Position numbers and translations under genes: made by a program. Positions 1 through 11,531 of a stretch of 64,000 nt of DNA are shown piece by piece; the first letter of the stretch is position 1, and the number at the start of each line of letters is the position of its first letter. The DNA comes from Lacunisphaera limnophila (GTDB lineage Bacteria > Verrucomicrobiota > Verrucomicrobiia > Opitutales > Opitutaceae), in NCBI RefSeq assembly GCF_001746835.1, contig NZ_CP016094.1, positions 3,177,501 to 3,241,500 on the forward strand, given 5' to 3'. The notes below the pieces were generated by a model. The model saw nothing but the letters and a program-made list of their open reading frames with translations. It was not told the origin of the DNA and ran no database searches.

Positions 1-2124
1 GCGTTCGACACCAACATCCCCGCGCTCGCCTACGAGGGGATGGTCGAATCGGAGAAGTATGGCTGCTTCGCCTGCCACGGTCCTGGCGGCGTCGGTGGCG
101 CGCCGAATCCCGGCAGTTTCAAGGGCCACATCCCCGCCTGGGATGGCGCCGAATACGCGGAGATTGTCCGCGACGAGGGTGAGCTGCGCGAGTGGATCCT
201 GGACGGTCATCCGCGGCGCCTGTGGGACAACCCGGCGGCGCGTCATTTCCTCGAGGGCCAGCTGGTGCAGATGCCCGTCTACCGGCGCGTGATCTCCGAT
301 GACCAGCTCGCTAAGATCATGGGCTACGTCCAGTGGCGCCGTACCGAGCGTCCGGCTGCCGAGCGGCACGATCCGGCGCGGCCGACGTTTCCTCCCGAGA
401 CCGGCCGGCCGGCCTCCCCGGTGTACCGGTCGCCGCTGCATATCGTGCTTTCCCCCGACGGCCGGCAGGCCTGCGTGGTCAACTACACCGCCAACCTGCT
501 TACCCTGCTCGATGTGCGTTCCCGGCAGGTGATTGCGGAAATTCCGGTCGGCGAACGCCCCACGCAGGCGCGGTATGCGCCCGACGGGCGCACGCTGTAT
601 GTGAGCTGCACGTGGGGCGGGAAGATTGATGTGGTGGACCTCGCCGAGCGGCGCGTGGTGCGGTCGTTGACCGCCGGCCACGAGCCCTGCGGCCTGACGG
701 TCTCGGCGGATGGCCGCCGCCTCTATGTCACCAACGTCGTTTCCAGCACGGTATCGATCCTGGATACGGAGACCGGCCAGACCGTGCACGAGACCCCGGT
801 CGGCGCGCAGCCACGTTTTGCGACGCTCACGCCCGACGGCGCGCGGCTGGCGGTCTCGAATGGGTTGTCCCCGTGGGTTTCGATCCTGGACGCTCGGGAC
901 GGACGGGAGACCGGCCGGTACGACATGGGCCGGGCGTCCATGCTGCGCGAGATCGTGTGCAGCCCGGATGGCCGCTGGGCCTTCCTGACCAACCTAGTTT
1001 CCCACAACGAGGTGCCGACCGTGCAGATGGAACGGGGCTGGATCAATTCCAACGGCTTCACCGTGCTGGACCTGGCGGAGCCGGGCCGGCGGGTCACGCT
1101 GTTGCTCGACCAATTGCTCTCCGGCGCCACGAATCCGAGCGGGCTCGTGCTGTCAGCCGATGCCCGCAAACTCTACGTGAGCCTGGCGGGCATCCATGAG
1201 ATCGCGATCGTCGATGTGCCCGCGGCGCTGGCGCTGGCGGCCGCCACGCGCACGCCCACCGAGATCCAGCTGCTGGAGGAGGACGTCGAGATCCTGCACC
1301 GCCGCGGGATAGCCCGGCGCCTGCCCGCCGGCGGGCTGGGGCCGCGTTCGCTCGCGTTGAGCGAAGCCACCGGCGAATTGTGGGTGGCCAACTATTTCAG
1401 CGATACGATCACGGTGCTCGACGCGGAGACCGGGGCGCAGCGCGCCGAGATCGCGCTCGGCCCGGTCCAGGCGATGAGCACCTGGCGGGAGGGCGAGTTG
1501 ATGGCCAACGACGGTCGGATCACCTACCAGAACTGGATCAGCTGCACGAGCTGCCACCAGGAGGACACCTCCAGTGACGGCCTGAACTGGGACCTCGCCA
1601 ACGACGGCCTCGGCAACGCGAAGAACAACAAATCGCTGCAGGACACCCATTTTTCCCCGCCGGCGATGTGGAGCGGCGTGCGCGCCGATGTGGCCGACGG
1701 AGTGGGGGCGGGGGAGCGGTTCCAGGGTTTCGTGCCGATGGCCCACGTGCAGGGCCCGATCACCGAGTACCTCTCGCATCCCGACCGGGCGCCGAGCCCC
1801 TACCGGCATGACGACCCGGTGATCCTGGAGCGCGGCAAAAAGCTCTTCGCCGCGGCCGGCTGTGATGTCTGCCATCCCGCGCCGTTCTACACGGATTTGA
1901 AATTCCACGACCTGGGCTTCGGCACCCCCAACGATTTCCGCAGCCGCTTCGACACGCCCTCGCTCAAGAGCACGTACCGCACGGCGCCTTACCTGCATGA
2001 TGGCCGCGCCGCCGACCTGCGCACGCTGTTCACCGAGCACAACCCGGACGACCTGCACGGCCGCACGCGCGGTTTCAGCCGGCAGGAACTGGATGACCTG
2101 ATCGCCTACGTGAGGACCCTCTGA
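1..2124 (+). CDS. Multihaem c-type cytochrome with YVTN beta-propeller and MauG-like C-terminus (5' partial)
   Basis: The frame is open from base 1 (residues AFDTNIPALAYEG precede the first Met at 40), so the start lies left of the window. Three haem c attachment motifs are visible: CFACH at nt 64-78, CTSCH at 1543-1557 and CDVCH at 1861-1875. Between them are repeated propeller blades of the YVTN type (for example DGRRLYVTNVVSSTVSILD). The last 170 residues resemble di-haem cytochrome c peroxidase/MauG, including the distal APYLHDGR signature. It should act outside the inner membrane in electron transfer or haem-based oxidation; the substrate is unknown. The stop overlaps the next start (TGATG), indicating translational coupling with the second cytochrome. 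Confidence 0.85.
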   Translation, partial: AFDTNIPALAYEGMVESEKYGCFACHGPGGVGGAPNPGSFKGHIPAWDGAEYAEIVRDEGELREWILDGHPRRLWDNPAARHFLEGQLVQMPVYRRVISDDQLAKIMGYVQWRRTERPAAERHDPARPTFPPETGRPASPVYRSPLHIVLSPDGRQACVVNYTANLLTLLDVRSRQVIAEIPVGERPTQARYAPDGRTLYVSCTWGGKIDVVDLAERRVVRSLTAGHEPCGLTVSADGRRLYVTNVVSSTVSILDTETGQTVHETPVGAQPRFATLTPDGARLAVSNGLSPWVSILDARDGRETGRYDMGRASMLREIVCSPDGRWAFLTNLVSHNEVPTVQMERGWINSNGFTVLDLAEPGRRVTLLLDQLLSGATNPSGLVLSADARKLYVSLAGIHEIAIVDVPAALALAAATRTPTEIQLLEEDVEILHRRGIARRLPAGGLGPRSLALSEATGELWVANYFSDTITVLDAETGAQRAEIALGPVQAMSTWREGELMANDGRITYQNWISCTSCHQEDTSSDGLNWDLANDGLGNAKNNKSLQDTHFSPPAMWSGVRADVADGVGAGERFQGFVPMAHVQGPITEYLSHPDRAPSPYRHDDPVILERGKKLFAAAGCDVCHPAPFYTDLKFHDLGFGTPNDFRSRFDTPSLKSTYRTAPYLHDGRAADLRTLFTEHNPDDLHGRTRGFSRQELDDLIAYVRTL

Positions 2125-5100
2125 TGACCGTCAAAAACATGAAGCTCATGGGGTGGGCCGGACTCGGGGTGCCGGTCCTGTTGTTGCTCGCGCAGGCCGC
2201 GCCGCCCGCGGCTGATCCCGCGCCGGTCTATCCGGCCGGGGGCATGCAGCCGCCCTATGGCCCGCTCTCGCCCGAATTGTCGCGGACGGTCCAGGCGGCG
2301 GATACCGGCAATCCGCCCTCGCGCTTCGGCCGGCTGATGAGCCGGCAGTGGGCCTATGGCGCGACCTGGACGCGGGAGAACCTGCGCCCGGTGCCGAATC
2401 CCCACCCGGCGCCCGAGCCGCAGCCGCGACGGGACCACCCGTTTGATGTCGCCGTATCCGGGGACGGGACCAAGGTCTACATCAGTTTGCTCGGCTCCGA
2501 GATGCGCCCGGGCAGCGAGGTCGCGGTCTACGATGTCGCCACGGACCGGATCACCCGTCGCATTCCGCTCAAGCTCGCGGGTCAGGCCGTCGCCCCCGGA
2601 TCGGCCCCCATGCGCCTGCATCTGCATCCGGATGGCCGCCACCTCTTCGTGGGCAACCGGTTTTCCAACTTCATCAGCGTCATCGACACCCGCCGCGACG
2701 AGGTTGTGCTCGAGATTCCCCTCGATTTCTACGCGCAGGGCATGACCTTTTCGGCCGACGGCCGGACCGCCTGGGTGGCCAACCGTTATCTGGACGAGGT
2801 CTTCGTCCTCGATATCGACCCCACGGCGGAGCCGTTCTCCGCCCGGATGCGGGTGATCGGCGGCCTGGACGACCAGGCCTACTTCGCGGCGGGTGGCGTG
2901 GGCGCCGTGCTCCAGGAATATTGCGGCACCACCGGGTGCCATGACACCAAGCGCGGTGGCTTTGTGGCCGGGGCCGACCTCAAGGCGAGTTTCATTTCCG
3001 CGTTGGATCACGTGGTGCCGGGCCGCTCCGTCGAGAGCCGGCTGCTGCGGGCCGTCACCCGCACACGCGATGGCGGGTATGCGGACACGATGCCGCTCTA
3101 CGCGAGCCATGCGAACAAGACGGTGGTCTTCGGCGACCCGGCGCGGGACGCCGGTTACCAGGCCATCGCCCGCTGGATCGACGGGACGCAGATCGGCCCG
3201 GGCATCGACGTGGGCAACCCGCGGAGCAAGCCCAGCATTGTCGCCCTCGGTACCGACGGTCACCACCTCTTCGTCGGCAACACCGGCACGCAGGACATCT
3301 CGATCGTGGACACCCGGCTCAACCGCGAGGTGGGCGGGATCTACATCCAGAATGTGGTCAATGAGCTGAAAATCATCCGGTCGCCCGCGACTGGGGACGA
3401 CTGGCTGTTTGTCACGACGATGGGTGTCGGCTTCGGCACGGCCAAGGAACGCGATCCCTGGGGTGGCGAGACCTGGGACAACACCAATGCGGCCTCCCAG
3501 TACACGGTCTGGCGCAATCCCGAAACCGCCGCCGTTTTCGCCAAGGAAAAGCAGGAGATCCTCGGTCCCTTCGAGGCCACCGACGGCACGGCCAGCTTCA
3601 AGTTCCGCGACATTCAGAACGATTACCTTATGATCAACGTGAGTCGGCTCGGCATCCCGGCCACGCCGCCCGCCGACGGGCTCAGGTACCTGCTGCGCGC
3701 CGACCGCTACGAGTCGCACCGCGGTTGGGTGCGGTATACCTCGGACACCGCCGAGTCGATGCTGCCGGACACGAAGGGTGACATCCCGCCGGACCTCATG
3801 CGGGTGGTGGGGGCGCTGCCGGACAAGGCGGTGGTCGTGGGCGACCGGATTTTCGTGGCCATGCAGGGGTCGGGCGAAGTGCAGGAACTGCGGGTCAATC
3901 CCGACGCACCGGACCCGAGTGATATCCTGACTCCGATCCGGAATTACGGCACGGGTGCGCAGCCCTTCGGCATTGCCGCCGGCGTACCGGGTACGATTTC
4001 GGAGGGGAAGCTCTTTGTCGCGAATTTCTACGGGAGTTCGCTCTCCGTGATCGACCGGGCCACAGGCGTGTCATTGGAGCGACCCACTGATCCGGCGTTG
4101 GTTAAACTCCCGCTCGGTGTGACCAGTGCCGAGCGCGGCGAGTTTCTCGTGCATACCTCGGCCTTCACCAGCGACAACGACCAGTCGTGTGTGAGCTGCC
4201 ATTACCGGGAACTCAGTGATGGCCGCGGCTGGGGGGTGAGCCAGATCCAGGGGCAGGAGTATCTCGCGGGCCAGACAAAGGTCGGCAACCTCGTCGAGGG
4301 CACGACCATGCTGCCGCCGCAGCAGAAGAGTCTCTGGGCGATCCAGCCGTTTTTCCTGGAGGGATCCCTGTCCGTCTACGACCCGCGCTCGATGCTGATG
4401 GAGCACTGCCCGGCCGACGACTTCAAGGCCGAGGTCGCGCGCGGGGAGGATTACCGCTGGCTCGAGGCGCACACCCCCGTGCTGGCCGTGCAGGACGTGC
4501 AGTCGAAGACCACCTCGTCGGCCGACAACGAATCGAACCTTGAGGAACGCCGCGCGGAGTTCTTTCGGCGGACGTCACTGAAATATTTCGGGAAGACCTT
4601 TGTGTTACGGGATTTTCAGCGGTTCGTCGGCGAGTGGCAGGCGCATGAGCCGCGGCTGATGCCGAATCCCTATGACCAAGCGGCCGCCTCGATCAACCGC
4701 GGCCGGGCGCTGTACAACCACCCGCAGCTGGGGTGTGCGTCGTGCCATCCGGCGCCGCATTTCGCCAAGAAGGATTTCCCGGGCAACCCGCGGCAGGTCG
4801 TGCCGCCGCAGGTGCCGCTGAGCGTGCGCGACACGGGCTTCACCCTGATCAGCATGCACCGGCTGGACTACCTCGCGGGGATCCGCCGCGACCTCGAGCC
4901 CTGGGATGCCGGTCGCGCGGAGACACCGGACCAGAACCAGCACATCACCCCGCTGCAGCTGCGCGGAGCCTGGGACCGGCCGCCGCTCTTCCTGCACAAC
5001 GCCATGGCCCGTTCGCTGCGGGAGGTCGTCGCCGCGCCCGGCGTGCCCGGCTTGCGCTGGTTCAAATATGAGCCCCTGTTCGGCGGTTCGCCCGAGCGGC

Positions 5101-5276
5101 CCGGCCGGCGCGAGATCGGGTTCAACGAGACCTACATGATCCTCAAGGGCACCAACGCCGCCAAGGTCCACCTCCAGACCGGCGGCCGCATCGCCAGCGA
5201 CGCGCATGGCGGCACGTCGCAGCTCACCCCCACACAGATCGACGATCTCGTGAACTACCTGGAGTCCATCGAATGA
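2124..5276 (+). CDS. Large exported multihaem YVTN-propeller cytochrome
   Basis: 1050 residues. A signal peptide is visible (residues 1-30, hydrophobic GVPVLLLLAQAAP). Propeller blades occur around residues 105-235, 360-400 and 610-660. Haem motifs are CVSCH (residues 689-693, nt 4188-4202) and CASCH (871-875, nt 4734-4748). There is also an unusual CX4CH (CGTTGCH, residues 267-273, nt 2922-2942) in a cytochrome-like insertion between blades. The C-terminal third matches the di-haem peroxidase/MauG layout, as in the upstream gene, so the two look like diverged paralogues. The start overlaps the upstream stop by one base and the end overlaps the next gene by four (ATGA). A periplasmic or surface redox role is inferred; the reaction is not known. 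Confidence 0.85.
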   Translation: MTVKNMKLMGWAGLGVPVLLLLAQAAPPAADPAPVYPAGGMQPPYGPLSPELSRTVQAADTGNPPSRFGRLMSRQWAYGATWTRENLRPVPNPHPAPEPQPRRDHPFDVAVSGDGTKVYISLLGSEMRPGSEVAVYDVATDRITRRIPLKLAGQAVAPGSAPMRLHLHPDGRHLFVGNRFSNFISVIDTRRDEVVLEIPLDFYAQGMTFSADGRTAWVANRYLDEVFVLDIDPTAEPFSARMRVIGGLDDQAYFAAGGVGAVLQEYCGTTGCHDTKRGGFVAGADLKASFISALDHVVPGRSVESRLLRAVTRTRDGGYADTMPLYASHANKTVVFGDPARDAGYQAIARWIDGTQIGPGIDVGNPRSKPSIVALGTDGHHLFVGNTGTQDISIVDTRLNREVGGIYIQNVVNELKIIRSPATGDDWLFVTTMGVGFGTAKERDPWGGETWDNTNAASQYTVWRNPETAAVFAKEKQEILGPFEATDGTASFKFRDIQNDYLMINVSRLGIPATPPADGLRYLLRADRYESHRGWVRYTSDTAESMLPDTKGDIPPDLMRVVGALPDKAVVVGDRIFVAMQGSGEVQELRVNPDAPDPSDILTPIRNYGTGAQPFGIAAGVPGTISEGKLFVANFYGSSLSVIDRATGVSLERPTDPALVKLPLGVTSAERGEFLVHTSAFTSDNDQSCVSCHYRELSDGRGWGVSQIQGQEYLAGQTKVGNLVEGTTMLPPQQKSLWAIQPFFLEGSLSVYDPRSMLMEHCPADDFKAEVARGEDYRWLEAHTPVLAVQDVQSKTTSSADNESNLEERRAEFFRRTSLKYFGKTFVLRDFQRFVGEWQAHEPRLMPNPYDQAAASINRGRALYNHPQLGCASCHPAPHFAKKDFPGNPRQVVPPQVPLSVRDTGFTLISMHRLDYLAGIRRDLEPWDAGRAETPDQNQHITPLQLRGAWDRPPLFLHNAMARSLREVVAAPGVPGLRWFKYEPLFGGSPERPGRREIGFNETYMILKGTNAAKVHLQTGGRIASDAHGGTSQLTPTQIDDLVNYLESIE

Positions 5277-6289
5277 ACCTGACCCCGGCCCGCACTTTCT
5301 TGGCGACGGTCCTTGCGCTGGCATTCCAACCCGCGCCGGCCGCAGATGCCCCGGCGATCCAGCCGCGGGAAATCAAGCATGAGCGGGACGGCTCGGTCAT
5401 GATGGCCATCCCCGCCACAGAATTTCTCATGGGTACGGCCGAGAGCCACCCGGATCTGCCCGCCAACCGCCTGATCCCCGGCCGGGTGAAGCCCACGGAG
5501 GTCAAACTGGCCCGCGCCTGGGAGGGCTGGGCGCTGGCGGACGAGCGACCGCAGCGGCCGGTGCGGCTCAAGGCCTTTGCCATCGACCGCCACGAGGTCA
5601 CCAACGCCCAGTACCGCCGGTTCCTGGCCGACGTGAAGCAGCACGGTGACACCGCCTGGGCGCACCCCGCGCAGCCGCCGGGCAAGGACCACACGCCCCG
5701 CTACTGGAAGGAGTTCAACCCGCTCCTGCGGGACCCGGAGTTCACGCGCCTCGCGCAGTTCAACCCGATGACCTTCACCGGCGACCGCACCCCCGTCGTC
5801 GGGGTGGACTGGTTCGACGCCTATGCCTATGCCCGGTGGGCCGGCAAGCGCCTCCCGACCGAAGCCGAATGGGAACTCGCCGCCCGTGGTCCGGATGGAC
5901 GGCGCTGGCCCTGGGGCAACGACTGGCAATGGGGCCTCTGCAACATCGTGGGCGAACGATCCGGCGCGGATGTCCGGGTGCCGGGCCGGGAAAAGGACGG
6001 CTACATCTACCCCGCGCCGGTCGGCAGCTTTCCGACGGGCCGCAGTCCTTACGGTTGTGACGACATGGCCGGCAACGCGGCCGAGTGGGTCGCCGACTGG
6101 TATGCGGCCGACGCCTATCAGACTGGGACGGGCGTGAACCCGACCGGCCCCGCCACGGGCACGATGCGCGTGGTGCGCGGGGGCAGTTCCCAAAACCTCC
6201 CGAGCAACACCCGCTGTGCGATCCGCGCCCAGCGCGAGCCTGAGTTCCGCACCTTCATCCTCGGTTTCCGCTGCGCCAAGGATCTCTGA
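5273..6289 (+). CDS. Exported formylglycine-generating-enzyme-family (SUMF1) protein, catalytic Cys pair absent
   Basis: 338 residues with a signal peptide (cleavage near AAD, about residue 25). The FGE-sulfatase/SUMF1 fold spans about residues 40-336: an early FLMGT strand, IDRHEVTNAQYRRF, GKRLPTEAEWELAARG, MAGNAAEWVADW and the closing LGFRCAKDL. In true formylglycine-generating enzymes a conserved Cys pair follows the RGGS motif. Here that segment reads RGGSSQNLPSNTRCAIRA and the pair is missing, so oxidation of a sulfatase cysteine is unlikely. No sulfatase gene is nearby. The ATGA overlap with the cytochrome gene points to a shared transcript and a role in the same periplasmic complex or maturation step. 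Confidence 0.85.
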   Translation: MNLTPARTFLATVLALAFQPAPAADAPAIQPREIKHERDGSVMMAIPATEFLMGTAESHPDLPANRLIPGRVKPTEVKLARAWEGWALADERPQRPVRLKAFAIDRHEVTNAQYRRFLADVKQHGDTAWAHPAQPPGKDHTPRYWKEFNPLLRDPEFTRLAQFNPMTFTGDRTPVVGVDWFDAYAYARWAGKRLPTEAEWELAARGPDGRRWPWGNDWQWGLCNIVGERSGADVRVPGREKDGYIYPAPVGSFPTGRSPYGCDDMAGNAAEWVADWYAADAYQTGTGVNPTGPATGTMRVVRGGSSQNLPSNTRCAIRAQREPEFRTFILGFRCAKDL

Positions 6290-6290
6290 C

Positions 6291-7373
6291 ATGACTACCC
6301 GCGTCCTTGCTTTTCTGCTCCTGACCCTCGCCGCCGGCGCCGCCGATCCCGTGCCGCCCGCCGGCATGGCCTACGTGCCGGCCGGGGAGTTCACAATGGG
6401 TAGCGACGAGGGCAATTTCGACGAGCGGCCCGCGCACCGCGTGCAGCTATCGGCGTATTTCATCGACCGGCACGAGGTCACGGTGGACGAGTACAATGCC
6501 TTCATCCGGGCCACCGATCGCTTTGATGTCATCGAGGGTCCTTGGTTCCGGATCTCGACTGCCGCCTGTGTCGACCTGCTCGCGCGTTACGAGCAGCGGT
6601 ACGGCTCAGTCTTCGCCGATTTTCGTCCACCAATGCTGACTGAACGAGCGGCCGCCGAGCGGCTCACCCGCGATGCCCTGCAGTGGAAGGCCGCGGTGGC
6701 CGCCTTGCGGGTGCTGCTGGGCGCGGACCGGGCGCTCGCCGACGGGACGGCGGCCGGCCTCGTTGCAGCCCCGGCCGTGCAGGCCCGGATAAAGGCCGAG
6801 GGCCGGCTGCCCGTCACGTTTGTCACCTGGCGCGACGCCTCCGCCTATGCGCGCTGGGCGGGTAAGCGGCTGCCGACCGAGGCGGAATGGGAGAAAGCCG
6901 CGCGCGGCCCCGACCGTCGGGTCTATCCTTGGGGCAACGAGTGGGACCCCGCGCGGGCCCGGGCCGGGTTGGACGTGGATGCCGGTCCGGTGGCGGTCGG
7001 GCAATTTTCCCAGGGGGCCAGCCCCTACGGCTGTCTGGATATGGCCGGGAATGTCTGGGAATGGTGCGAGGACTGGTTTGGTGAATCCTATTATCAGGAA
7101 TGTGCTGACGGTATCGTGAACCCGCGGGGGCCGGTCGGGCTGGCGAACGGCGAGCTGCCCGCGCCGGATCCCAAGGCGAATCACCTCCAGAACGCCCGCA
7201 AGCAGGGCCGCGAGCCCGACACGCGCAAGATTGTGCGCGGGGGCTGCTGGGCCGCCGGGGCCGGGATGATCGGTCAGACCGAATTCAACAACCGCAGCGC
7301 GCGCCGCCTGTGGTCCAATCCCGACTACTGGTCGCAGGACACGGGCTTTCGTTGCGCCCAGGACGCCCCATGA
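6291..7373 (+). CDS. Second exported FGE-family (SUMF1) protein with an internal insertion
   Basis: 360 residues starting at the ATG one base after the previous stop. This start gives a clean signal peptide (MTTRVLAFLLLTLAAGAA) and a following FGE domain. Family motifs are FTMGSDEGN, IDRHEVTVDEYNAF, GKRLPTEAEWEKAARG, MAGNVWEWCEDW, VRGGCW and DTGFRCAQD. About 100 extra residues (roughly 65-165, helical and Ala/Arg-rich) are inserted after the HEVT segment, and another insertion precedes RGGCW. The catalytic cysteine pair of genuine FGE enzymes is not seen. It is paired with the preceding paralogue and ends in an ATGA overlap with the lipoprotein gene. Function beyond the fold is unknown. Confidence 0.85.
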   Translation: MTTRVLAFLLLTLAAGAADPVPPAGMAYVPAGEFTMGSDEGNFDERPAHRVQLSAYFIDRHEVTVDEYNAFIRATDRFDVIEGPWFRISTAACVDLLARYEQRYGSVFADFRPPMLTERAAAERLTRDALQWKAAVAALRVLLGADRALADGTAAGLVAAPAVQARIKAEGRLPVTFVTWRDASAYARWAGKRLPTEAEWEKAARGPDRRVYPWGNEWDPARARAGLDVDAGPVAVGQFSQGASPYGCLDMAGNVWEWCEDWFGESYYQECADGIVNPRGPVGLANGELPAPDPKANHLQNARKQGREPDTRKIVRGGCWAAGAGMIGQTEFNNRSARRLWSNPDYWSQDTGFRCAQDAP

Positions 7374-7666
7374 AGCCAACCCGCCAACCGCTCGTTGCCC
7401 TTGCCCTGTGGCTGATCCTGCAACTCGCCGGGACCGGCTGCGGCCAGTCCACGCAGGAAACCGCCTACCTGAACGCCGAGCAGCGCGAGCGGGAGGCCGC
7501 GGTGGAAGCCGCGCCCGAGGTCATCGCCGAGTACCGGCGCGTGATCGCCCTCGAGCCCGGTTCGCGCTGGGCGAAACAGGCCGCCACCCGCATTGCGGCG
7601 CTCGAGGCGCGGCATCAGGCGGAGGAAACCCGCAAATCCGTCTTTCAGGAACACGGCGTGGACTGA
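7370..7666 (+). CDS. Small lipoprotein with TPR-like helical segment
   Basis: 98 residues. A lipoprotein signal peptide ends in the lipobox LAGTGC, about residues 19-24. The mature part is short, charged and helical. The stretch EVIAEYRRVIALEPGSRWAK looks like a single TPR-type helix pair. The start overlaps the preceding stop by four bases (ATGA), making this the fifth gene of the cytochrome/FGE-like operon. A membrane-anchored assembly or tethering role is possible, but the sequence does not say. The long-frame start is supported by the signal peptide. Confidence 0.75.
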   Translation: MKPTRQPLVALALWLILQLAGTGCGQSTQETAYLNAEQREREAAVEAAPEVIAEYRRVIALEPGSRWAKQAATRIAALEARHQAEETRKSVFQEHGVD

Positions 7667-7708
7667 ATCACGCCAGACCCGCGCCCTCGCTTTACCCCCA
7701 ACGACACC

Positions 7709-8437
7709 ATGAAAACGAACCTCACTCCCGCCGGCACCTGCCGGCTTGAGATCCGCGTCTCTGAACGCGAAACCTTCACGGAATACCACGTGACGGCTTC
7801 CCCTGAATCCCCCGTGGCGGCCGGACCGGCGGCGGAGCAACTGTTCGCGGCCGTGGCGGCCGCGCTGGTCGAGCACCGCATCCAGCCGGTGCAGGAAAAA
7901 ATCTACGGCCTGACCGCCGTGCGCGAGGAAGTGCTGCGCCAGCGGGACAGCATCTACCGGCTGCGCGGCCTTGACCGCACGATGCCGGTCACCTGGATCG
8001 AAGGCACCCCGCTCCATGCGGGTGGCTTTGCCGGGGTGCAGATCTGGGGCGTGGCCTCCCGCGATGGGCAGGCCTGTGTCAGCACGGTCGAGAATGACGT
8101 GACGGGTCGGGCCCGGCTGTGGACGGGCGCCGGCTTTCGCATGCTGCACCTGCCCGCGGTCCGCGGCACGCGGCCGGGCGGCGCGCTCGCTCCGTCGCGG
8201 TTGGAGCAGGCTGCGCAGATGTTTGCCAATGTTGGCGCCGGGCTGGCCGCCCATGGCATGAAATACACGCAGGTGAAACGCACGTGGATCTACCTGGCGC
8301 AGCTGCTGGAGTGGTACCTCGACATGAATCGCGTGCGGACCGACCATTACCGCCGGCACGGCCTCGGGTGGAAGGCGGGCCGGACTTTCCGGCCAGCACC
8401 GGCATCATGGGCCGGAGCGATGGGGAAGAATGTGTGA
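7709..8437 (+). CDS. Chorismatase (FkbO/Hyg5)/RidA-like protein, N-terminal half of a frameshifted gene
   Basis: 242 residues. The first about 220 residues resemble the N-terminal part of FkbO/Hyg5/XanB2-type chorismatases, a family built on the RidA (YjgF) fold. Recognisable segments are VSTVENDVTGRARLWT and the helix KYTQVKRTWIYLAQLLEWY followed by MNRVRTDHYRRHGL. After RRHGLGW the frame runs into a non-homologous tail and stops. The expected continuation (PDFPASTGIMGR) is present in the next frame, so the gene is broken by a one-base frameshift between about 8363 and 8380. The TGA at 8435-8437 overlaps an ATG (TGATG), so the second half might still be made by coupling. Starting from 7709 gives the full N-terminal domain. 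Confidence 0.65.
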   Translation: MKTNLTPAGTCRLEIRVSERETFTEYHVTASPESPVAAGPAAEQLFAAVAAALVEHRIQPVQEKIYGLTAVREEVLRQRDSIYRLRGLDRTMPVTWIEGTPLHAGGFAGVQIWGVASRDGQACVSTVENDVTGRARLWTGAGFRMLHLPAVRGTRPGGALAPSRLEQAAQMFANVGAGLAAHGMKYTQVKRTWIYLAQLLEWYLDMNRVRTDHYRRHGLGWKAGRTFRPAPASWAGAMGKNV

Positions 8438-8877
8438 TGGACGTGCTCGCCGTGGAGAATCTCCTCCCGGGCGCCGTGGTGACCACCGCCCTGAACCGCA
8501 GCGCGAAGCAGCATTCCTCCTTCAACTACGGCTCGTCCTTCTCGCGGGCGATGGCCTTCGAAATCGAGGGTCGGCAGACCATCCATGTTTCCGGCACCGC
8601 CAGCATCAACACGGCGGGCCTCAGCACGCATATCGGCGATGCCGAGCACCAGTGCATCGATACCCTGCTGAGCATTTCGGCGCTGCTGGCCGAGCAGGGC
8701 GGGGGATTGGGGCATATCACGTCGGCGACCTTGTTCTGCAAGGACCGCGCGGCGTGGGAGGCCTGGGAGCGGACCACCCAGTTGCTCGGGTTGCCGAAGA
8801 TTCCGAAGATCTGTCTGCTCGCCGACGTTTGCCGCGACGACCTGTTGGTCGAAATGGAGGCGGTGGCGGTGATCTGA
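8437..8877 (+). CDS. Chorismatase/RidA-like C-terminal half (frame-shifted continuation)
   Basis: 146 residues from the ATG that overlaps the upstream stop. The sequence (FSRAMAFEIEG, HVSGTASINTAGLSTHIGD, then a helix LLSISALLAEQ) matches the C-terminal RidA-like domain of chorismatase-type proteins. Homology continues upstream of this ATG in the same frame (PASTGIMGRSDGEE from about nt 8380), which argues that the ancestral product was one chain of about 390 residues and that this is its downstream half. A homologous intact enzyme would cleave chorismate to a hydroxybenzoate or dihydrodiol product plus pyruvate. Activity of the split form is uncertain. Either true inactivation or a base-calling error would explain it. 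Confidence 0.65.
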   Translation: MDVLAVENLLPGAVVTTALNRSAKQHSSFNYGSSFSRAMAFEIEGRQTIHVSGTASINTAGLSTHIGDAEHQCIDTLLSISALLAEQGGGLGHITSATLFCKDRAAWEAWERTTQLLGLPKIPKICLLADVCRDDLLVEMEAVAVI

Positions 8878-8906
8878 GCCCAAGCGACGACAGCTTTTGT
8901 GCTGAA

Positions 8907-8980
8907 GGGCGGGGTCTCCGAACCCCGCCTCGAACACGTTATCACAATCGAATAAGGCGGGATCAGCGATTCCGCCATAC
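8907..8980. repeat. REP-like bipartite palindromic element, copy 1
   Basis: The core GGCGGGGTCTCCGAACCCCG (8908-8927) is itself palindromic. It is followed after a spacer (TCGAACACGTTATCACAATCG) by a degenerate second palindrome, GGCGGGATCAGCGATTCCGC (8957-8976). Core, spacer and second arm line up with the element at 13896-13974. The remaining bases up to 9130 show only a small hairpin around 9104-9118 and no supportable gene. Confidence 0.7.
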
Positions 8981-9131
8981 AGCACAGAACGACATCGCTG
9001 CGGTGCCTCCACTCAACCCGTCCGGAGGCCGGGTTCCACCCCGAGGCACTGGTGCCAGCGGGGGAACATTACGCTAACATCACCGGCGGCAACCAGGGCG
9101 GTATGACCGCCGAGGTTGGATCGCGATCAAC

Positions 9132-9167
9132 AAAAAGCTCCGGCAACTCGTTGAATTGCCGGAGCTT
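9132..9167 (-). terminator. Rho-independent terminator of tRNA-Arg
   Basis: Perfect 12-bp inverted repeat (AAGCTCCGGCAA at 9135-9146, TTGCCGGAGCTT at 9156-9167) with a 9-base loop. Read leftward it is followed by a run of T (A9132-9136 on the + strand). It lies six bases beyond the tRNA 3' end. Confidence 0.85.
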
Positions 9168-9172
9168 GAAAG

Positions 9173-9249
9173 TGGTGCGGGCATAGGGAGTCGAACCCCA
9201 AACCTTCAGATTCGTAGTCTGACGCTCTATCCAGTTGAGCTATGCCCGC
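9173..9249 (-). tRNA. tRNA-Arg (anticodon ACG)
   Basis: Read leftward from 9249: acceptor GCGGGCA pairs with TGCCCGC; D arm GCTC/GAGC; anticodon stem TCAGA/TCTGA around loop CTACGAA (anticodon ACG); T arm TGGGG/CCCTA with loop TTCGACT; discriminator A and encoded CCA. Length is 77 including CCA. The ACG anticodon implies A34-to-inosine editing by TadA. Confidence 0.97.
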
Positions 9250-9349
9250 ACGAAGGAAGGGCGAATAAGCGAATTTCCCGGAGCAACAGCAAGCAGAATT
9301 TTAATGGGAAAACCCCGGTCGAAATTTTCGCGATGGGCGTAGGCAAAGG

Positions 9350-9982
9350 TCAGTCCGGCAGGCGCTTGACGCGGATGTGGCGGTAGCGGACGACGCTCTT
9401 GGGGTCGTGCGCCTGCAGGGCGAAGGTACCGGTGCCGAGTTTCCGCTCGAAGGCGGCGCCGGCCTGGGCGCCGGCGGGTTCCTTGTACTGCATCACGATC
9501 GTGTCATTCACCTTCACGGTCACCGTGTTGCCCTCAACGATGATGTGCTGGGTCCACCAGACGTTGTCCTGGGCGGCGACGAAGCCGACGCTGGCGAGGT
9601 CGTAGAGGCTGCCGGTTTTCTTCCAGTCGGACTGGGTGTTGTTGACCTGCGTTTCGAAGCCGGCCTGGGGCCAGTTGGTTTCCTGGTAGCGGGTGTGGAA
9701 GTAGATGCCGCCGTTCGCGCCGGGCTCGGTCATGACCTCGACCTTGAGCTCAAAATTTTTGAAGGGGACGGGATCGCCGGTATAAAACAGGTGGCAGCGC
9801 GGGCCGCGGGTGACGAAGGCGCCGTCCTCGATTTTCCAAGTGGCGGTGTTTTCGGTGGCGGGGGTCCAGCCGGCGAAGCTGGAGCCGTCCATGAGGCTGG
9901 TGAAGCCCTCCTCCGCCGCGGCGGCGAAGGCGGGGACGCTGACGAGCAGGGCGAGGGCGAACCGGAGGGGTAGGGGGCGCAT
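9350..9982 (-). CDS. Secreted DUF1080 (3-keto-disaccharide hydrolase-type) protein
   Basis: 210 residues from the ATG at 9982, chosen because it opens a clean signal peptide (MRPLPLRFALALLVSVPAFAAAA). The mature part is a single concanavalin-like jelly-roll of the DUF1080 family: FTSLMDGSSFAGWTP, WKIEDGAFVTRG, NFELKVEVMTEPGANGGIYF and a closing LQAHDPKSVVRYRHIRVK. This family is strongly expanded in Verrucomicrobiota and Planctomycetota. Some members hydrolyse 3-keto-glycosides, fitting polysaccharide or glycoside use in the periplasm. Substrate cannot be read from the sequence. It stands alone between the tRNA and hpf. Confidence 0.88.
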   Translation of the reverse strand: MRPLPLRFALALLVSVPAFAAAAEEGFTSLMDGSSFAGWTPATENTATWKIEDGAFVTRGPRCHLFYTGDPVPFKNFELKVEVMTEPGANGGIYFHTRYQETNWPQAGFETQVNNTQSDWKKTGSLYDLASVGFVAAQDNVWWTQHIIVEGNTVTVKVNDTIVMQYKEPAGAQAGAAFERKLGTGTFALQAHDPKSVVRYRHIRVKRLPD

Positions 9983-10025
9983 GGCCGCAGTGAAGACAGT
10001 CGAAGGGAGCGGGGCAAACGGAAAC

Positions 10026-10052
10026 AAAAAAAGGCCCGCGTTGCCGCGGGCC
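10026..10052 (-). terminator. Rho-independent terminator downstream of hpf
   Basis: GGCCCGCG (10033-10040), loop TTGC, CGCGGGCC (10045-10052). In the leftward direction a run of seven T follows (A10026-10032 on + strand). It sits 23 bases past the hpf stop. Confidence 0.85.
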
Positions 10053-10075
10053 GGAAAAATCGAGGCAGACGAGGC

Positions 10076-10453
10076 TCAGATCGCCTTCGGCAGTTCCACG
10101 CCGTCGAATTCGATCGGGCGCGGGTGGTTGCGTTTGTCCTTATGCTGGCCGTGGCGCTTGTGGAGGACGTGGTCGACCTTGTCGATCAGCAGGTCCACGG
10201 ACTTGTGCATCTCCTCGGACTCGGCCGAGCAGTTGATGTCGGGGCCCCGGACTTGGACGTGGGCCTTGGCGACGAACTTGTGCGCGTGGTCATGCTGGCG
10301 GTCGCACTCGAGTTCGACGCGGATCCTCACGATGTGCGTGTCGTGGCGAAACAGTCGCTCCATCTTCTCCTGCACAAAGGCTTTCAGCGAGGGAGTCAGA
10401 TCGAGGTGGATGCCGGTCACGATGACGTCGTGGGAGTTGTTGGTTTTGTTCAT
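10076..10453 (-). CDS. hpf: Short ribosome hibernation promoting factor (HPF/YfiA/RaiA)
   Basis: 125 residues. The ATG at 10453 follows a good ribosome binding site (AAGGAATAACC) and begins the conserved fold. Typical segments are VIVTGIHLDLTPSLKAFVQEKMERL, the strand RIRVELECDRQ, KFVAKAHVQVRGP and the helix SVDLLIDKVDHVLHKRHGQHK. The basic C-terminal helix end is what contacts 16S rRNA in this family. The length corresponds to short HPF without the dimerising C-terminal domain of long HPF. The role is stabilising inactive ribosomes in stationary phase. The gene is monocistronic with its own terminator. Confidence 0.93.
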   Translation of the reverse strand: MNKTNNSHDVIVTGIHLDLTPSLKAFVQEKMERLFRHDTHIVRIRVELECDRQHDHAHKFVAKAHVQVRGPDINCSAESEEMHKSVDLLIDKVDHVLHKRHGQHKDKRNHPRPIEFDGVELPKAI

Positions 10454-10670
10454 GGTTATTCCTTCGGTTGGACTGAAACAAAGGGCGTGGAGCGGGAGGG
10501 GGCTCCCGGCGTTCCTTGAGGGGGTTCCGATAGTGCGGGCCGTTGACCAACCGGGCCGAGCGACACTGGGAACAAGCACTTCATTCGACAAAGAGGATTA
10601 CTAGGCGGCATGGGCGGATTGGCAAATCTTCTCGGCTGCATATTCCGGGAAAATTATTGAACATGGGAGC

Positions 10671-11531
10671 ATGACCCATGCCGACGAGCCCCTGCCGCCG
10701 ACGATTCCGCCCCTGGTGAACCCGGCGGACCTGCCGGGTTGGGTCCTGCTCAGTGATGAGCGGCTGCTGGTGTTGGACAAGCCGGGCTGGCTGGTGGTGC
10801 ATCCCTCGAAGAACGGCCCGTGGTCGAGCCTGGCCGGGGCGGTGCGCGAAGGCTTGGGTATCGAAACCATCCGCTTTGTCTATCGGCTCGATCGGGAGAC
10901 ATCTGGAGTGGTACTTCTGGCGAAGGACGAGGCGACCGGCCGCCGGCTGGGCAAGGCGGTGCTGGCGCGCCGGATCGGCAAGGCGTACGTCACGATCCTG
11001 GAAGGGGAACTGCCAGGGCCGGTCACGGTGGACCAGTGGCTGGGGCCCGACCTGACCGCCGGGGTGTCGGTCAAACAACAGGTGGTCCCGGCCGGCACGG
11101 CCGGGGCGCAGGCGGCGACGACGGTCTTTCATCCGTTGGTGGTGCGCGGAGGCTGCACGCTGGCGGGGGTGGAGTTGGTGACGGGCCGCAAGCACCAGAT
11201 CCGGGCGCATGCCGCCTGGCTCGGCCATCGAGTGGTGGGGGACAAGCTCTACGGGCCGGATCCGCGGCTCTACCTGGAGTTCGCCGAGCAGGGCTGGACC
11301 GCGCGGCATTCGGCGCTGCTGCGATTCACGCGTCAGGCGTTGCATTGCGCGGCGATCGACCTGCGGCCGGCGCGGATGGATTACCTGCTGCGGGCGCCCT
11401 GGCCGGCGGACCTGGCGCGGTTTGCGGCGCGGGAGATGAGCCTGCCGGCGGTGGAGGCGGAGGCACTGATCGACGCGTTTATCGCGGAAAAGCTGCCCGC
11501 GCCGCCCGCAGGACAGCCGATAGAGTGGTGA
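10671..11531 (+). CDS. RluA-family RNA pseudouridine synthase
   Basis: 286 residues. After a 30-residue leader come the family motifs: LLVLDKPGWLVVHPS, the catalytic loop YRLDRETSGVVLLAKD (Asp in RLDRETSG is the nucleophile), GKAYVTILEG, and GRKHQIRAHAAWLGHRVVGD with KLYG. No S4 domain is seen at the N-terminus, so it is an RluA/RluC-catalytic-core type. It isomerises uridines in rRNA or tRNA; the exact site cannot be told. The 3' end overlaps the convergent carboxypeptidase-like gene by 53 bases. Confidence 0.92.
   Translation: MTHADEPLPPTIPPLVNPADLPGWVLLSDERLLVLDKPGWLVVHPSKNGPWSSLAGAVREGLGIETIRFVYRLDRETSGVVLLAKDEATGRRLGKAVLARRIGKAYVTILEGELPGPVTVDQWLGPDLTAGVSVKQQVVPAGTAGAQAATTVFHPLVVRGGCTLAGVELVTGRKHQIRAHAAWLGHRVVGDKLYGPDPRLYLEFAEQGWTARHSALLRFTRQALHCAAIDLRPARMDYLLRAPWPADLARFAAREMSLPAVEAEALIDAFIAEKLPAPPAGQPIEW

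Follow-up and report, generated by a model that had tools for sequence, protein, structure and literature searches.

A conserved gene set of Opitutaceae encoding a probable multi-heme redox complex related to the beta-gamma proteins of hydrazine synthase and lacking alpha

What do five tightly packed genes for heme-binding propeller proteins, FGE-fold proteins and a lipoprotein make together, and which known system do they resemble? The genes lie at the left end of the window, a 64,000-nucleotide stretch of the complete 4.2-Mb genome of Lacunisphaera limnophila (NZ_CP016094.1, genome positions 3,177,501-3,241,500). The reading proposed here, to which we assign a probability of roughly 0.6, is that they encode an extracytoplasmic multi-heme redox complex, related to the beta-gamma family of hydrazine synthase (HZS) but without alpha. 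The features of the locus, in window coordinates, are as follows.

1..2124, + strand: gene A (3' part), starting at genome position 3177087; 845 aa; predicted membrane anchor, two cytochrome c domains, propeller and di-heme domain
64..78, + strand: heme motif CFACH of the second mono-heme domain of A, from the sequence
430..1419, + strand: propeller of A; its alignment to hydrazine synthase beta spans the whole length and takes in the sixth-blade loop (PT.Q.ERGW)
1483..2121, + strand: di-heme domain of A, of the hydrazine synthase gamma / bCcP-MauG type (CTSCH, CDVCH, DLHGRT)
2124..5276, + strand: gene B, 1050 aa; diverged propeller/di-heme protein with an extra CX4CH heme motif
2922..2942, + strand: CX4CH heme motif of B (CGTTGCH; in orthologues CGTIGCH, CSAASCH, CSAAGCH and CATTGCH)
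4188..4202, + strand: first C-terminal heme motif of B (CVSCH), from the sequence
4734..4748, + strand: second C-terminal heme motif of B (CASCH), from the sequence
5273..6289, + strand: gene C, putative exported FGE-fold protein (PF03781), without the catalytic Cys pair
6291..7373, + strand: gene D, second putative exported FGE-fold protein, likewise without the catalytic Cys pair
7370..7666, + strand: gene E, 98-aa lipoprotein; found in loci L017 and L018 but not in G091 or the g178 genomes
7709..8437, + strand: gene F, N-terminal part of a tandem-Rid/chorismatase-like protein
8437..8877, + strand: gene G, C-terminal Rid domain in a different frame, overlapping F by TGATG; F and G are one fused gene in the other loci

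The reading frames of the window place genes A to E in immediate succession, all overlapping or nearly touching. A and B share TGATG at 2122-2126 (an overlap also found in L017 and L018), B and C share ATGA at 5273-5276 (also in L017, L018 and G091), a single base separates C (ending at 6289) from D (starting at 6291), and D and E share ATGA at 7370-7373. An earlier note on this DNA had described these four junctions and the same domain make-up, with A and B as heme/propeller proteins, C and D as FGE-like proteins and E as a lipoprotein, and all of this is borne out. Its extent of 1-7666 is correct for the five genes and too narrow at both limits: extending the locus leftward places the start of gene A 414 bp before the window, and on the right the set continues into the tandem-Rid gene at 7709-8877, which was missed because it lay outside those coordinates, although it is the member that ties the locus most clearly to a wider system. 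Fetching the left flank revealed a divergent DUF255/thioredoxin-like gene and a large FG-GAP/UnbV gene. To the right of gene E, a 42-base gap precedes the two frames that jointly make up one tandem-Rid protein.

Genomic neighborhood analysis indicates that the set is conserved. The order cytochrome c2, beta-gamma-like protein, B, FGE, FGE, tandem-Rid recurs in eight Opitutaceae-type genomes of four genera, so the set is not a chance assembly; it is complete in all seven complete loci, the eighth being cut by a contig end inside gene C. Identity within the set falls to about 40-60%, and the genes flanking the G091 locus differ from those of the window. Relatives without the FGE genes or with the genes scattered, which the earlier note had named as the finding that would speak against its proposal, were not encountered, and its idea of an extracytoplasmic redox set with genes that are kept together is thereby supported. 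The set is probably an undescribed redox machine of soil and water bacteria, built with HZS-like parts. The CRTAC1/FG-GAP gene was rejected as a core member: it adjoins the operon in G000, L016 and L017, but the G091 orthologue lies elsewhere, and each Opitutaceae genome searched holds 5-12 matches. No useful PADLOC match was obtained, and a defense system was likewise set aside.

Gene A is the key to the assignment. A hydrophobic N-terminus is followed by two mono-heme cytochrome c domains (CFACH twice), a seven-bladed propeller of the YVTN/YncE type and the di-heme domain. The protein aligns over nearly full length with chains B and C of the hydrazine synthase structure (PDB 5C2V), first the propeller with its sixth-blade loop (residues 289-618 with chain B, E 4e-45) and then the di-heme gamma domain (640-852 with chain C in two pieces, E 4e-22), with about 31% of residues identical across the region compared. 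The top curated models for A are all hydrazine synthase models, namely the beta-gamma fusion (NF052342, 216.5 bits against a cut-off of 1250, scored on the window part of A, which contains the whole beta-gamma region), beta (174.2 bits) and gamma (74.5 bits), all three scores lying far under the equivalog cut-offs. In a tree in which the HZS sequence is partial and taken from printed alignments, the A clade groups with HZS and O. terrae-type proteins (support 0.995 and 0.967). By these alignments, gene A encodes an HZS beta-gamma homologue fused to two mono-heme cytochrome c domains; the cytochrome c pair forms a separate gene in G091 and in G456/458/459. The description 'MauG-like' in the earlier note is thus superficially right, with the closer relative, hydrazine synthase beta-gamma, overlooked: A shares with MauG, MbnH and bCcP the di-heme fold, the two CxxCH motifs and a Trp at the bridging site, but it carries a propeller fused in front, its C-terminal His lies in DxHGRT as in HZS gamma, and its match to the CCP_MauG Pfam model is marginal (26.2 against 25.6 bits).

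To our knowledge, hydrazine synthase was long believed to have no relatives, and the locus bears on the evolutionary origin of that enzyme. Its likeness to hydrazine synthase (HzsA/B/C) lies in the beta propeller and the gamma di-heme order; in an alignment with Verrucomicrobiota homologues, A retains the sixth-blade loop, both CxxCH heme sites and the DxHGRT histidine. In the same alignment gammaHis144 corresponds to Trp and gammaAsp168 to Phe, and gammaCys165 falls in a gap; these are residues of the gammaI site, with roles taken from PMC12758564 and PMC12607021. Gln occupies the loop at chain position E219. With these three gamma residues lost and no HZS_alpha domain in the genome, hydrazine synthesis by the locus appears unlikely. 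The locus in turn adds to the hydrazine synthase plan two mono-heme domains, a second propeller cytochrome, a pair of FGE-fold proteins and the tandem-Rid protein.

That second propeller cytochrome, gene B, has the domain order of A in weaker form, with three heme motifs. Its matches to the hydrazine synthase structure are partial (5C2V chain B, E 6e-11; chain C, E 0.01), its identity to A is 24%, and in the tree with A and HZS it sits on a long branch without a placeable position. The CX4CH heme motif is kept in every B orthologue read. B is best described, as far as its motifs and alignments go, as a diverged propeller/di-heme protein with an added CX4CH heme motif. It occurs in 2 of 288 genomes of the phylum and in 8 of 252 genomes of the family, spread over four genera, and a plasmid collection yielded no match. 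A structure model built from few input sequences reached a pLDDT of 34, too poor for a fold search.

The distribution of alpha places the operon in a wider frame. Beta-gamma-like proteins, commonly of about 600-650 aa, are encoded in 59 of 288 Verrucomicrobiota genomes, counting the window's genome and G091. HZS_alpha (PF18582) accompanies them in 19 of the 21 beta-gamma genomes tested, the two exceptions being those same two genomes, and a genome search found it in none of the eight carriers of B. Where present, alpha is often adjacent to beta-gamma, and an FGE-fold domain lies at the C-terminus of alpha or follows it in 9 of the 12 alpha proteins examined near beta-gamma. L058 has HZS_alpha, FGE and beta-gamma fused in a single natural frame of 3,111 aa (1997-11332), an arrangement that speaks for a physical complex. 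On this comparison of gene content, there is a conserved (alpha-FGE)/(beta-gamma)/tandem-Rid module, and the operon represents a version of it without alpha. Elsewhere, in what is presumably an Akkermansia-like genus with 2.7-3.5-Mb genomes, the genes for alpha-FGE, beta-gamma and tandem-Rid follow one another close to a gyrA-like gene (L065, 7380-18977). G118 and G101 each hold 36 HZS_alpha domains, an unexplained expansion.

Clusters of HZS alpha/beta-gamma outside anammox, in clades I-IV and including O. terrae, are described by Hagglund et al. 2025 (PMC12758564). The present locus resembles them in its fused beta-gamma outside anammox, in the Trp at the gammaHis144 site and, in three loci, in a nearby FG-GAP/CRTAC1-type gene; it differs in having no alpha, a second propeller/di-heme protein, separate FGE genes and the tandem-Rid gene. 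FGE and Rid partners are not mentioned in the consulted sections of that paper. The open-access literature yielded no description of the alpha-less set, of the second propeller cytochrome or of FGE and tandem-Rid partners, and nothing relevant on HZS together with FGE, chorismatase, RidA or Akkermansia. While the HZS-like family was thus already known in 2025, the alpha-less variant and its partners appear to be new.

The FGE-fold proteins bear on what the complex might do. C and D both carry PF03781 (188.6 and 184.9 bits), the only Pfam domain found in them; the N-terminal DinB-type domain of EgtB and SenA is lacking, and the EgtB model scores only 101.7 and 88.8 bits against a cut-off of 360. 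The copper-binding Cys pair (RGGS region) is absent from C, D and their orthologues, as it is from the alpha-fused FGE domains. A tree places C and D among ordinary FGE, and the idea that they are detached alpha-FGE domains was rejected. From this one tree, recruitment of the FGE fold to HZS-like systems seems to have occurred more than once, and since C and D branch apart from the alpha-fused domains, a shared scaffold role would be a matter of analogy. Lipoprotein E, with a clear lipobox in the L018 orthologue (LLAGGC), is the least conserved member and is limited to close relatives of the window.

The earlier note had suggested a redox or protein-modification machine. In a protein-modification machine, the di-heme proteins would oxidize side chains of a partner, as MauG and MbnH do, and the FGE-like proteins would present or modify the target. 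Di-heme domains of the bCcP/MauG type are indeed present, with a bridging Trp in A, and FGE-fold proteins often bind polypeptides. The curated models for MauG (TIGR03791) and MbnH, however, score only 28.8 of 443.9 bits and 25.3 of 362.9 bits, far under the cut-offs. The Cys pair gone from C and D is retained by the genuine FGE of the same genome (SFLCTDQYC), which adjoins a sulfatase-like gene carrying the motif CTPSR. No candidate substrate was seen either: the set has no conserved short protein, and no E was found in four of the seven complete loci. Protein modification is, on balance, unlikely.

In the preferred reading, an extracytoplasmic multi-heme redox complex, the N-termini of the products would direct their export and membrane anchoring, and the products would form one complex by analogy with the fused alpha-FGE-beta-gamma frame. 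The two mono-heme domains of A would exchange electrons with a cytochrome pool, either in the membrane or soluble, and from these domains the path would lead on to a bis-His (gammaII-like) heme and then to an open, His-ligated (gammaI-like) heme, the putative reaction site for a small molecule. B would stand in for alpha as the partner. C and D would be non-catalytic scaffolds, and in relatives the alpha-fused FGE domain may serve likewise. Heme ligation, the contacts between subunits and the role of B are all predicted from sequence in this scheme. Since A shares its inter-heme Trp with bCcP and MauG but lacks three HZS gammaI residues, its chemistry would more likely be of the peroxide or MauG type than a reduction of NO to hydroxylamine.

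That last possibility, a nitrogen-oxide or hydroxylamine enzyme that reduces NO or a similar small nitrogen compound at the gammaI-like heme without condensation, would fit the full-length beta-gamma homology and the branching of A with HZS, and the nitrite-reductase-type Cytochrom_C552 model scores above cut-off in seven of the eight carriers, strongly in five. The model is nonetheless marginal in two carriers and missing in one, and the replacements at gammaHis144, gammaCys165, gammaAsp168 and E219 all speak against such an enzyme, which we regard as quite improbable. Mere detoxification by an exported di-heme peroxidase with accessory genes is very improbable: the bCcP-like heme order, the bridging-site Trp and N-terminal mono-heme domains similar to built-in electron donors agree with it, but a plain peroxidase would not need another large cytochrome, a pair of FGE-fold proteins and a conserved tandem-Rid protein as well, and the CCP_MauG match is marginal.

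The tandem-Rid protein, which has no evident signal peptide, is the remaining partner. A single ORF in L017, L018, G091 and three g178 genomes, it is divided between two frames in the window, which may reflect a true mutation or an assembly error. It shares with the FkbO/Hyg5 chorismatases its two Rid-fold halves, and the chorismatase model TIGR04444 is among its best matches, yet the scores in relatives (32.9-68.1 bits) lie far under the cut-off of 325 bits, and the N-terminal part in the window gives no match. At the position of the RidA active-site Arg105, whose role is described in PMC4433059, the C-terminal half has Lys. A structure model from few input sequences (pLDDT 47) was too poor for a fold search. 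The tandem-Rid profile matches 106 of 288 Verrucomicrobiota genomes: 54 of the 59 with beta-gamma and 52 of the 229 others (Fisher p 6e-23, kinship not corrected for). In 34 genomes of eight families, the gene lies within 0.9 kb downstream of beta-gamma on the same strand. In the proposed scheme, the protein might make or clear a small metabolite, perhaps derived from chorismate, that is used along with the complex.

Taken further, these associations could describe a whole family: HZS-like extracytoplasmic systems of beta-gamma, FGE-fold and dedicated tandem-Rid proteins, widespread in Verrucomicrobiota and performing an undescribed redox reaction for which the tandem-Rid protein supplies a possibly chorismate-derived cofactor or substrate, with alpha replaced by the second propeller cytochrome in the Opitutaceae form. 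We hold this broader picture to be possible but doubtful. This locus and its neighbors in the family tree have a beta-gamma core that is used both with and without alpha and that is repeatedly paired with two unexpected partners, the FGE fold and a tandem-Rid enzyme, and cultivable groups (Opitutaceae and apparently the Akkermansia-like genus) allow tests of the non-anammox function of the family.

Tandem-Rid genes without beta-gamma were also seen beside DUF1501, PPC and PSCyt2/PSD1 genes or a DHOR di-heme protein (L092, L094, L097, L098 and L100-L104). The exported systems that it adjoins in this way are unrelated, so the protein may meet a general need; the pattern suggests that it partners exported systems broadly within Verrucomicrobiota. 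In G099 (L087, 7937-10529), a close relative of the tandem-Rid gene adjoins a DAHP synthase gene, which fits a link to chorismate. A paralogue of the two cytochrome c domains, located at 75 kb, was set aside, its neighbors being uninformative. A two-cytochrome-c paralogue followed by a mono-heme gene with a CVMCH motif was observed in L014 (8740-10142) and L015 (8021-9340), and this pair is conserved in G000 and G091.
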